Below are positions 55,553-59,559 of a stretch of 64,000 bases of DNA, piece after piece. Position 1 is the stretch's first letter. Each line of letters begins with the position of its first letter. This stretch comes from Acetobacter vaccinii (lineage in GTDB: Bacteria > Pseudomonadota > Alphaproteobacteria > Acetobacterales > Acetobacteraceae). Made by a program: the position numbers and the translations under genes. The DNA lies in the NCBI RefSeq assembly GCF_008365315.1, contig NZ_CP043506.1:1040001-1104000 (forward strand), written 5' to 3'. Below the pieces are notes generated by a model that ran no database searches, was not told the origin of the DNA, and worked only from the letters and a program-made list of their open reading frames with translations.

Positions 55553-56902
55553 ATGAAGCGTTTTTTCGGAACAGACGGCATCCGCGGCACAGCCAACACC
55601 GCACCCATGACAGTAGAGATCGCCCAGAAGCTGGGGCAGGCGGCTGGCCTGCATTTCCGGCGTGGCGACCACAGGCACAGCGTGCTGCTGGGCAAGGACA
55701 CACGGCTTTCGGGGTATATGATCGAAAGCGCGCTGGTCTCTGGTTTTCTCTCTGCGGGGATGGATGTCACGCTGGTCGGCCCGCTGCCCACACCGGCCAT
55801 TGCCATGCTCACCCGCTCACTCCGGGCTGATCTCGGGGTTATGATCTCGGCATCCCACAACCCGTATGGTGACAACGGGATCAAGCTGTTCGGCCCCGAT
55901 GGCTTCAAGCTGTCCGACCGGGATGAAAGCGAGATCGAAGCCCTGATGGAGGCCGATCTGTCAGCCCATCTGGCCGCACCAGACCAGATCGGCCGTGCCT
56001 CACGCCTGAACGACGCCGCCGGGCGCTACGTGGAAAACGCCAAGGCCTCCCTCCCACGCGGGCTGCGGCTGGATGGCATGCGTATTGTCATCGACTGCGC
56101 CAATGGCTCGGCCTATCGCGTGGCCCCCACCGCCCTGTGGGAACTGGGGGCCGAGGTTATCCGGATCGGATGCGACCCCAATGGGGTGAACATCAACGAC
56201 CGTTGTGGTTCCACCCATGCCCAGACCCTGTGCGCGGCTGTGCTGGAACACAAGGCCGATCTGGGCATTGCCCTTGATGGTGACGCCGACCGCGTACTGA
56301 TTGCCGATGAAACCGGCCATCTGGTCGATGGCGACCAGATTCTGGCGCTGATCGCCCAGTCCTGGATGCGCGAAGGGCGACTGGTCGGCGGGAGCGTGGT
56401 GGCCACGGTCATGTCCAACATGGGGCTGGAGCGTTTTCTGGCCACACTGGGGATCGGGCTTGAACGTACCGCCGTGGGCGACCGCTACGTGGTTGAACGC
56501 ATGCGCGAGCTTGGAGCCAACGTCGGGGGCGAACAGTCGGGCCATATGGTGCTGACCGATTTTGCCACCACGGGCGATGGGCTGGTGGCTGCATTGCAGG
56601 TGCTGGCTGTGCTGATCGGGGCAGGCAGGCCTGCAAGCGAAGTCTGCCGCCTGTTCCGCCCCTTTCCGCAACTGCTCCGCAATGTGCGCTATCAGGGCGC
56701 CTGCCCGCTGGACACGCCAGCAGTACGCCAACGCCAGCAGGACGTGGAACGCCGCCTGGCAGGCAACGGCCGCCTTGTGTTGCGCCGCAGCGGCACCGAA
56801 CCTCTGGTACGCGTGATGGTTGAAGCCGAAGACATGGCTCTGGTGGACGAGGCTGTCAGCATGATGTGCGACGTGCTGGAACAAGCAGCCCTGCCAGCCT
56901 GA
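55553..56902 (+). CDS. glmM: Phosphoglucosamine mutase
   Basis: GlmM converts glucosamine-6-phosphate to glucosamine-1-phosphate for peptidoglycan and lipopolysaccharide. The 449-residue protein begins [13 protein letters not shown]. It has the catalytic serine in [18 protein letters not shown] (about S101), the metal loop [10 protein letters not shown] and the sugar loop [10 protein letters not shown]. The C-terminal [14 protein letters not shown] binds phosphate. It lies 11 bp before thiD. Confidence 0.96.
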
Positions 56903-56913
56903 AGGACACTCCA

Positions 56914-57735
56914 ATGCCCCAGCACCCCACCGCCAAAGCCCGTGTTCTTTCCATTGCCGGCAGTGACTCCGGCGGAGGGGCGGGTATTCAGGCAGATATC
57001 AAAACCATTACCGCCCTGCATGGCTACGCCACGACAGCCATTACCGCGCTGACGGCCCAGAACACCGTGGGCGTGCAGGGTATTCTGCCTGTGCCGCCAG
57101 ATTTTATCCGCAGCCAGATCCGCAGTGTGCTGGACGACATCGGAACCGATGCCATCAAAACCGGCATGCTGGGGGGCAGTGACGAAATTGCCGTTGTGGC
57201 AGAGGAAATCACCCGCGCAAAAATGGCCCGGCCGGACCTGCCGATCGTGATAGACCCAGTCATGGTTGCCAAGGGGGGCGCTGTCCTGCTGAAGGCTGAA
57301 GCGCTGGAAGCCCTGCGCCGCCTGTTATTGCCACAGGCCAGTGTGATTACCCCCAACCTGCCAGAAGCCGAGTATCTGACAGGCATGGTGCTGGCCGATG
57401 TGGCCGACATGCGCGCCGCAGCCCGCTACCTGCACGAAGCCACAGGGGCATCCGTGCTGTTAAAAGGCGGCCATCTGCCTGGGGATGATCTGGTGGATGT
57501 GCTGATGGATGAACACGGGCTGCATGACTTCCCCACCACGCGTCTACCCGGCCGCCACACACATGGCACCGGCTGCACGCTGGCCAGCGCGCTGGCAACC
57601 CGGCTGGCACAGGGCATACCCCTGCATGATGCGGTGGCGCAGGCCCGCCAGTATGTCCGCAACGCCATTATCCACGCCCCCGGTCTGGGCAGGGGGGCTG
57701 GCCCCCTATGGCACGCCGTGGACCCCACGGCCTGA
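56914..57735 (+). CDS. thiD: Hydroxymethylpyrimidine/phosphomethylpyrimidine kinase
   Basis: ThiD phosphorylates HMP and HMP-P in thiamine synthesis. The 273-residue ribokinase-fold protein has SIAGSDSGGGAGIQADIKT, the pocket segment YATTAITALTAQNT, VIDPVMVAKGG and the anion-hole region HGTGCTLASALA. AAGGA precedes the ATG at 56914. It converges with the CtrA-like gene. Confidence 0.95.
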   Translation: MPQHPTAKARVLSIAGSDSGGGAGIQADIKTITALHGYATTAITALTAQNTVGVQGILPVPPDFIRSQIRSVLDDIGTDAIKTGMLGGSDEIAVVAEEITRAKMARPDLPIVIDPVMVAKGGAVLLKAEALEALRRLLLPQASVITPNLPEAEYLTGMVLADVADMRAAARYLHEATGASVLLKGGHLPGDDLVDVLMDEHGLHDFPTTRLPGRHTHGTGCTLASALATRLAQGIPLHDAVAQARQYVRNAIIHAPGLGRGAGPLWHAVDPTA

Positions 57736-57879: not shown

Positions 57880-58698
57880 TTACTCACCCACAGCCTGACG
57901 CCGCAGGTGCTGCTGGGCCAGAGCGTGTTCCTGCATGGCCATGGCAGGCACCAGTGTCAGATCAGGCACATGGCGCACAGGGGTGGGAGCAACAGCCGGA
58001 GCAGAGGCCGCAACAGGCTTGCGTACCTGCGGATCGTGCAGGATGTAGCCTTTGCCCCACACGGTCGAGATCATGTCACCCGCACCAACGGCCTGCAGCT
58101 TTTTGCGAAGCTTGCAGATAAAGACATCAATAATCTTAATATCGGGCTCATCCCGCCCGCCATAAAGATGATTGAGGAAGGTTTCCTTGGTCTGGGCAAT
58201 GCCCTTGCGCATAATCAGCAGTTCAAGGATGGCAAATTCCTTGCCTGTCAGGTGCACGGGCTGATTACGGATGCTGACACTCTGGCTGTTCAGATCCAGT
58301 GTCAGATCCCCGACCTGAATGACAGGGTGGGAGAACCCGTTGGACCGGCGCAGCACAGCATGGGTCCGGGCCACCAGTTCCGCCACATCAAAGGGGGCGG
58401 CCAGGTAATCATCCGCGCCCATGCCAAAGGCCCGCAAGCGCGCATCCGGCACATCCTGCGCGGCAATGATAATGACCGGGGTTGCAATTTTCAAAGACCG
58501 GAGCGTGGCCAGGACCGCATAACCGTCCATGTCGGCCAGATGGAGGCTGATAATTGCCAGGCCATAATCATAATTACGTAAAAGTTCGATAGCGTTCTGC
58601 CCGGAGCAGGCAAGGTCTGATGTCAGACCTGCTTTTTTCAGAACAGACTGGATGGCGCGGCTGGAGGTGAATTTATCCTCGGCAAACAGAATGCGCAT
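57880..58698 (-). CDS. CtrA-family response regulator with degenerate receiver
   Basis: A 272-residue OmpR/CtrA-type regulator. The output domain is very close to the cell-cycle regulator CtrA (VHLTGKEFAILELLIMRKG, TKETFLNHLYGG, DIKIIDVFICKLRKKL). The receiver has lost its key residues. The phosphoacceptor position is S51 (LAIISLHLADM), the acidic pocket reads EDK in place of EDD, and the lysine position in the AAPF segment is alanine. It ends in a 45-residue Ala/Val/Pro and Gln/His-rich tail. It should bind DNA without phosphorylation, perhaps competing with a canonical CtrA. Confidence 0.85.
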   Translation of the reverse strand: MRILFAEDKFTSSRAIQSVLKKAGLTSDLACSGQNAIELLRNYDYGLAIISLHLADMDGYAVLATLRSLKIATPVIIIAAQDVPDARLRAFGMGADDYLAAPFDVAELVARTHAVLRRSNGFSHPVIQVGDLTLDLNSQSVSIRNQPVHLTGKEFAILELLIMRKGIAQTKETFLNHLYGGRDEPDIKIIDVFICKLRKKLQAVGAGDMISTVWGKGYILHDPQVRKPVAASAPAVAPTPVRHVPDLTLVPAMAMQEHALAQQHLRRQAVGE

Positions 58699-59100
58699 GG
58701 TATGCCCTCACGGCTGAGACGATATGGTTTCATACATCTTAAGGTTGTGCTGGTGATGGTGTCCTACACCTTGGCGCGTCTTTTTGGAAAAATAAACATA
58801 ATTTCATCTTAGACGCCCAGATAAGGTCATCTTTTGATGCCATAATTAGATAAATGTTATTTTTCATTTGATATGGAACTTATTTGGGGTTTTTCATTCC
58901 CCTTAATTTTCAATGTTATATCAAGCTACCTCACGCGCAGCTTTTGCCACAATTGCCACAAAGTAGGCTTTTGGGCCTCTGTTCACTTTTTCTTTTCCAC
59001 GCACAAACGGCGTATTTCGTATTTTGCCATGGCGCGCCGTTATGCCAGAACTGCGCGAACCCACGCACCCTTACGACAGCAGGAAAAGGCAGGCGGAACA
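58699..59100. other. 402-bp AT-rich divergent stretch between CtrA-like gene and tsaE
   Basis: No gene is supported. The segment at 58780-59020 is markedly AT-rich. An in-frame ATG at 59029 could start a longer TsaE but has no ribosome site. No clear CtrA box (TTAA-N7-TTAA) or -35/-10 pair was found. Confidence 0.4.
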
Positions 59101-59559
59101 GTGCTCTTTCTCGACACCGAGGACGCAACAGCCGCTCTGGCGGCGCATCTGGCACGGCTGGCGCGGCCGGGCGACTCCATTCTGCTGTCCGGCCCGCTGG
59201 GGGCTGGCAAAAGTGTGCTGGCCCGCGCTTTTTTGCGCGCTTTCTGCTCAAGCCCTGGCATGGAAGTGCCAAGCCCCACCTATACGCTGGTGCAGCCCTA
59301 CGCAGGGCCGATCTGCACGGCACACCATTTTGACCTGTGGCGGCTGGGTGGCCCTGATGAACTGGACGAACTGGGCTGGGACGATGCGCGTGACGGGCTG
59401 GTGCTGGTGGAATGGCCCGAACGGCTGGAGGACATGACCCCACCCGACGCCCTGCACATTACCCTTGCCGTGCTGCCTGATGGCCGCCGCACCGCCCGCC
59501 TGCACGGCTGGGCCGACCGGCTGCCCCCAACCCTGACCGACACGGGGGCAGCCCCATGA
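59101..59559 (+). CDS. tsaE: tRNA threonylcarbamoyladenosine biosynthesis ATPase TsaE
   Basis: TsaE is the ATPase partner in making t6A37 in tRNAs reading ANN codons. The 152-residue protein has the P-loop LSGPLGAGKSVLARAFLR (G31-S38). VPSPTYTLVQPY and HFDLWRLGGPDELDELGWDD follow, with VEWPERL near the end. The GTG at 59101 is preferred for the AGGCGGA ribosome site and normal length; a 59029 ATG would add 24 residues. It overlaps addB by four bases. Confidence 0.92.
   Translation: MLFLDTEDATAALAAHLARLARPGDSILLSGPLGAGKSVLARAFLRAFCSSPGMEVPSPTYTLVQPYAGPICTAHHFDLWRLGGPDELDELGWDDARDGLVLVEWPERLEDMTPPDALHITLAVLPDGRRTARLHGWADRLPPTLTDTGAAP

Follow-up and report, generated by a model that had tools for sequence, protein, structure and literature searches.

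The window analysed here, a 64,000-nucleotide stretch of contig NZ_CP043506.1 from Acetobacter vaccinii, contains a gene encoding a CtrA orthologue, P0001, flanked by thiD and tsaE (Table 1). Both PF00072 (receiver) and PF00486 (the winged-helix, OmpR-type output domain) are matched in P0001, which combines a receiver and an OmpR-type output domain with a CtrA recognition helix, as members of the CtrA family do. Its top curated NCBIfam model is likewise the CtrA model NF045991, at 291 bits against a model cut-off of 350, which is missed; the second-best model scores 160 bits, about 130 bits lower, and the name of NF045991 suggests a Rhodobacterales training set. The DNA-binding domain, described as intact in an initial annotation made from the sequence, is indeed conserved and carries KIIDVFICKLRKKL at residues 188-201, while the tail is variable among relatives and of low confidence in the structure model.

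Table 1. Features at and around the ctrA locus, in window coordinates
Feature	Position	Strand	Basis
thiD, member of the conserved order glmM-thiD-ctrA	56866..57735	+	ORF and gene order
ctrA orthologue with pseudo-receiver, 272 aa (P0001)	57880..58698	-	ORF, Pfam and gene order
Ala/Pro/Gln-rich tail, residues 223-272, without terminal Ala-Ala	57883..58032	-	alignment and model
DNA-binding domain, residues 126-222	58033..58323	-	Pfam and alignment
KIIDVFICKLRKKL, recognition-helix region, residues 188-201	58096..58137	-	translation and alignment
Receiver domain (residues 1-118) with a predicted (beta-alpha)5 fold, pLDDT about 90-98	58345..58698	-	Pfam and structure model
Codon 101 GCC (Ala), switch Lys replaced	58396..58398	-	codon read and alignment
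Codon 79 GCC (Ala), conserved Ser/Thr replaced	58462..58464	-	codon read and alignment
Codon 51 AGC (Ser), phospho-accepting Asp replaced	58546..58548	-	codon read
CACAACCTTAAGATGTAT, an inverted-repeat-like element preceding ctrA; aligns with one found before ctrA in other Acetobacter	58732..58749	-	alignment
tsaE, other flank of ctrA; start chosen by eye	59029..59559	+	ORF and gene order

The receiver is the unusual part of the protein. The ORF and codon reading bear out the annotated frame and length, S51 (AGC, 58548-58546), A101 and a lysine at codon 9 (AAA), and together with A79 these replacements remove three of the five catalytic receiver residues; the acidic pair E7-D8 is present. K9 had been read as a lost acidic-pocket residue, a reading that fails, as the pocket pair is E7-D8 and K9 is an adjacent, nondiagnostic residue, found with all five catalytic residues intact in five of the seven rows of a D51 Acetobacter clade in our CtrA alignment. 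The accompanying judgement that phosphorelay control through this receiver is improbable stands: with S51, A79, and A101, position 51 cannot undergo aspartyl phosphorylation. The same three residues make P0001 an aspartate-less receiver (ALR) as defined, by absence of the Asp, in the available part of PMC12632262. A sequencing or frame error behind S51/A79/A101 is rejected by P0002, a protein from another source that is 97% identical to P0001 and has the same three residues; six of the nine positions at which the two differ lie inside the tail.

The order glmM-thiD-ctrA recurs in core Acetobacter and at E51 loci with enough flank, and tsaE lies on the far side of ctrA in core Acetobacter; thiD is absent beside ctrA at the H51 loci. 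Of the 38 loci numbered L229-L266, which belong to other genera or are of uncertain orthology, 21 have glmM and/or thiD beside ctrA; none of the loci from ChpT-bearing genomes does. The shared gene order thus identifies P0001 as the ctrA orthologue, and in a phylogenetic tree P0001 is nested among Acetobacteraceae CtrA proteins. A search of the whole genome (3.08 Mb on three contigs, in an assembly rated 100% complete) returned P0001 as the one match at E <= 1e-45, the next-best match being 34% identical. The protein is therefore the genome's only close CtrA and not, as first annotated, a paralogue. This bears directly on the proposal that a phosphorylation-dead paralogue competes with canonical CtrA at CtrA boxes. 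The proposal would suit a DNA-binding domain near that of canonical CtrA (63 of 97 residues are identical to those of L013, from a ChpT-bearing genome), but the genome holds no D51 CtrA with which a syntenic orthologue could compete, the nearest other protein carrying Q51, and we reject this reading as barely credible. Across the genus, ctrA is matched at E 1e-25 in 47 of 49 genomes and at E 2.8e-74 or better in 46; a scan of the 49 found no close CtrA in G117, G210, and G333, and the gene is cut short in G319.

Comparison with relatives indicates that the loss of the aspartate is a property of the clade. Position 51 is D in all 24 rows from ChpT-bearing genomes, and in 25 rows from other acetic acid genera it is E (19), D (4), or A (2). 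In the 17 rows of the clade of P0001 it is T (8), H (5), S (3), or N (1), and K101 is kept in none of them. Two further groups, E51 (18 rows) and D51 Acetobacter (7 rows), are defined by residue 51 itself. On a tree of 78 rows at least 12 changes are needed at position 51; the S/T/H/N clade (16 rows in the tree) has one origin, with support of 100/93, as has the D51 Acetobacter clade (6 rows in the tree). E51 occurs in proteins named A. fallax and A. nitrogenifigens, and the residues lost differ between clades. Conservation of S51 had been proposed as the mark of a real pseudo-receiver; that proposal stands in that the loss of D51 is real and common to relatives and falls in that the serine is not fixed, position 51 being T, H, N, E, D, or A elsewhere, so that what relatives have in common is a lost switch and not a serine. 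Nor do the orthologues all keep D51, a finding that would have undone the original observation, since relatives carry T, H, N, E, or A too. What the alignment records is a clade-wide conversion of CtrA to a pseudo-receiver regulator, with P0001 among the more advanced cases. As a separate observation, D51E is the commonest state among CtrA rows from genomes with no ChpT match at all (40 of 77; L035, L061-L075, L229-L252).

In the canonical CckA-ChpT-CtrA phosphorelay the receiver is served by the phosphotransferase ChpT, and ChpT (PF10090) was found in none of the 49 genus genomes by a profile search that was positive for the Caulobacter control. In the family as a whole PF10090 matches occur in 185 of 299 genomes, 174 of them over the cut-off; absence of ChpT in Rhodospirillales was noted earlier in the available parts of two studies (PMC2877005; PMC8116508). 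Chromosomal context gave the same picture. In the ChpT-bearing genome G291 a single 13-kb stretch contains ctrA, chpT, and chemotaxis genes (named by eye), with chpT adjoining cheA, as it does in G292. No chpT was found beside cheA in the A. vaccinii genome, where a CheY-like receiver precedes cheA and a STAS-like protein precedes that (both named by eye); a search of this interval for a hidden ChpT found none. Fifteen 20-kb stretches around chpT, taken from ChpT-bearing genera whose CtrA is more divergent, contained no CtrA.

Among the CtrAs examined, the state of the receiver largely matches the presence of ChpT. In a table of 103 CtrA rows, to which 40 were later added, a clear ChpT (E < 1e-5) goes with a complete catalytic set of five in 56 of 56 Acetobacteraceae CtrAs (23 plus 33), these 56 being the part of the 185 ChpT-positive genomes chosen by listed CtrA coordinates, with genera of more divergent CtrA lying outside. 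Without a clear ChpT, 71 of 87 CtrAs examined (68 of 80 plus 3 of 7) have an incomplete catalytic set. The link is strongly confounded by kinship: the rows yield only two to three independent pairs, for which a sign test gives p = 1, and a Fisher test on the first 103 rows disregards kinship and was set aside. The receiver is degraded in two genomes with weak ChpT matches, G009 (7.6e-4) and G001 (3.7e-4), and sixteen complete receivers, seven of them from Acetobacter, come from genomes without a clear ChpT, which suggests that another phosphodonor may exist in those genomes. The CckA model was passed by none of 40 genomes, with or without ChpT; as ChpT-bearing genomes also fall under its cut-off, the model is uninformative in this family. 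Two hybrid kinases of the A. vaccinii genome reach 211 and 271 bits against the CckA cut-off of 1000; the genome has 19 HATPase matches, and 15 of them were inspected as sequences.

A rival reading is that the gene is decaying, its receiver drifting without selection. Clade-specific residue losses, the absence of the gene from G117, G210, and G333, its truncation in G319, and a faster relative divergence of the receiver (the ratio of receiver to DNA-binding divergence is 1.70 in the no-Asp Acetobacter group, against 0.95 in the D51 clade and 1.45 in ChpT-bearing rows) would all accord with decay. However, when only pairs with dS below 1.5 are counted, the no-Asp group (19 rows, including three with E51) has a mean dN/dS of 0.10 in the receiver, from 50 of 171 pairs, and of 0.09 in the DNA-binding domain, from 63 of 171. 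The D51 clade and the E51 group both give 0.055 and 0.042, whereas ChpT-bearing rows reach 0.19 and 0.17. The dN/dS of the no-Asp group thus falls inside the range of working CtrAs, with no sign of selection released beyond it. Given also the strong matches retained in 46 of the 49 genomes (E <= 2.8e-74) and the invariant interface charges described below, decay seems very improbable; both domains are under purifying selection and the protein is probably functional.

What has been retained is as telling as what has been lost. Residues K/R87, D96, D97, E107, R111, and R118, which we take to be the charge set that pairs across the alpha4-beta5-alpha5 face, are kept in 17 of 17 S/T/H/N51 rows; P0001 itself carries K87R, with R87, D96, D97, E107, R111, and R118 all present as in an OmpR/PhoB interface. 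The 25 rows of other genera show one Q87 and one V107. The available part of PMC2586830 confirms conserved charges at the interface as a set, but not the individual residues. The modelled receiver of P0001 superimposes on a solved CtrA receiver (4qpj_C) with 1.1 A over 118 columns, and the best full-length structural match of the model is DNA-bound PmrA. With the catalytic residues gone and the interface charges and DNA-binding domain kept, the catalytic site has been lost while the dimer and DNA surfaces were retained. A precedent for activity in this state comes from Rhodobacter capsulatus, in which overexpression of nonphosphorylatable CtrA D51A doubled gene-transfer-agent activity, and unphosphorylated CtrA has been modelled as an activator by the author of that study (PMC6363796, in the part available). 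In Caulobacter, D51E serves as a phosphomimetic (PMC12186491, in the part available).

A retained fold is also what would be expected if the pseudo-receiver were still a sensor, with a ligand, a partner protein, or Ser/Thr phosphorylation at or near position 51 replacing aspartyl phosphorylation. The receiver is under purifying selection and predicted to fold as a full receiver, and 11 of the 17 rows of the derived clade have S or T at position 51. The other six have H or N, however, so that a hydroxyl residue is not required, and we regard continued sensing as rather unlikely. The reading that we prefer, and that is possible on the sequence evidence, is that P0001 is controlled by protein level.

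In relatives an inverted-repeat-like element (TACAACC...GGTGTA) sits 42-53 bases before the ctrA start codon. Its pattern, which was written after the alignment had been viewed and which the variant CACAACCTTAAGATGTAT of the A. vaccinii gene escapes, is matched in 22 of the 29 core rows and 8 of the 10 E51 rows, but in none of 8 ChpT-bearing rows. A conserved upstream element of this kind may point to transcriptional control. Perfect TTAA-N7-TTAA boxes show no enrichment, the genome having 5 sites against 27 for a reversed control pattern, and none was found within 350 bases upstream of this ctrA. Within the same distance upstream of ctrA, four of the seven D51 Acetobacter rows have a perfect box, against one of the 17 S/T/H/N51 rows. 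The scarcity of perfect boxes suggests that CtrA binding sites or autoregulation may have been lost or changed. One of the five boxes is found between flhA (named by eye) and fliF, close behind flhA, a weak observation with five sites. A terminal Ala-Ala is the ClpXP signal of Caulobacter CtrA. It is present in 16 of 24 ChpT-bearing rows, in 25 of 33 ChpT-bearing rows added later, and in all 15 E51-group rows counted without core members; other genera have it in 5 of 25 rows, and core Acetobacter in none of 28.

A second CtrA-like protein of the genome, CtrA2 (G000:C1:741597-742406; L224:5597-6406), is encoded among flagellar genes (named by eye). With Q51, A79, and A101 its receiver is more degraded than that of P0001, to which it is 34-35% identical; both proteins have a CtrA-type recognition helix, KIIDVFICKLRKKL in P0001 and KVIDVMVCNIRKKM in CtrA2. 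A MucR-type zinc-finger gene (PF05443; L224:6467-7297, minus strand) is convergent to the CtrA2 gene. Flagellar-size FliF is present in 32 of the 49 genus genomes; with CtrA2 called at 45% identity or more and the CtrA2 and FliF tables combined by hand, CtrA2 occurs in 16 of these 32 and in none of the 17 without FliF. Among core Acetobacter with a P0001-type CtrA the correspondence is complete, CtrA2 being found in 16 of 16 genomes with FliF and 0 of 15 without; the E51 group has FliF in 15 of 15 genomes and CtrA2 in none. Of the 17 genus genomes that lack flagellar FliF, 15 keep a P0001-type CtrA, whose function is therefore probably not motility alone. G117 and G333 have none of the three proteins. 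The 1.7-Mb genome G210, which lacks both CtrAs, still has FliF.

It may be asked whether P0001 (CtrA1) and CtrA2 oppose each other at overlapping sites. Both keep the CtrA-type recognition helix, and CtrA2 always accompanies a CtrA1 match (all 16 genus genomes, the match being truncated in G319). At about 35% identity, and with CtrA2 tracking the flagellum and CtrA1 not, such opposition seems improbable. Because CtrA2 tracks FliF and CtrA1 persists without it, motility is the likely task of CtrA2, and CtrA1 probably has another.

Collectively, the alignments, gene order, and models suggest that P0001 is the product of a single ctrA orthologue that the phosphorelay no longer reaches, and that probably dimerises and binds DNA unphosphorylated, with its activity set by its amount. 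Specifically, in this Acetobacter the CckA-ChpT-CtrA phosphorelay would no longer end at CtrA; the protein would dimerise through alpha4-beta5-alpha5 without phosphorylation and then bind DNA, and how much of it is made would determine CtrA activity. Relatives show D51E, the substitution used in the laboratory as a phosphomimetic, and passage through such a stage may have allowed the loss to be tolerated. The function of the protein probably extends beyond motility, flagellar control having probably moved to the second CtrA-like protein. More tentatively, and with somewhat less than even confidence, we propose an evolutionary sequence in which ChpT was lost, Asp51 passed through the phosphomimetic Glu to free variation, and CtrA became constitutively dimer-competent and controlled by amount, its job in flagellate core Acetobacter being split with a flagellar pseudo-receiver CtrA.

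P0001 resembles the CtrA of Caulobacter and other Alphaproteobacteria in domain order, recognition helix, and best model (NF045991), but lacks D51, S79, K101, and the terminal Ala-Ala, in a genome without detectable ChpT or perfect-box enrichment. It shares with described pseudo-receivers and aspartate-less receivers (PMC12632262 and PMC4395418, as far as available) the loss of the Asp and other catalytic residues from a fold predicted to be kept; in contrast to them, it is the orthologue of a cell-cycle master regulator, altered across a clade. The term CtrA is absent from the available main text of both papers, and the literature searched, mostly without subscription papers, showed no report of a pseudo-receiver CtrA in acetic acid bacteria; hits checked for the term gave Caulobacter background, remarks of a general kind, or nothing in the main text. 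The phosphorylation-independent OmpR-type regulators 2hqr, an atypical orphan, and RitR (5u8m) have the OmpR/PhoB fold and are structural neighbours of P0001, although they belong to other families. Relatives carry naturally the D51E of a laboratory allele, and P0001 is comparable to a nonphosphorylatable allele (PMC6363796 and PMC12186491, in the parts available); unlike these alleles, the change in P0001 is natural, shared among species of a clade, and accompanied by loss of K101 in a genome where ChpT is undetectable. In Alphaproteobacteria, CtrA is the textbook case of a cell-cycle regulator controlled by phosphorylation, and a clade that keeps the orthologue without its phosphorylation chemistry offers a natural experiment on the need for phosphorylation. 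The same clade also bears on the rewiring of two-component regulators after loss of a kinase pathway, and with D, E, T, H, S, and N forms within one genus the question is open to comparison or exchange of forms in harmless laboratory strains of vinegar bacteria.

Three minor observations complete the analysis. The CtrA2 match in G326 contains one in-frame stop. Seven of the 17 genomes without flagellar-size FliF (G030, G272, G309, G322, G334, G338, and G339) have a short YscJ-like match only, of about 85-104 bits and 254-290 aa, perhaps part of a type III secretion system. Finally, a long open frame lies antisense to ctrA at window positions 57907-58581 (plus strand), with a counterpart, in some cases containing stops, in 113 of 299 family genomes; it is most likely an effect of codon bias.
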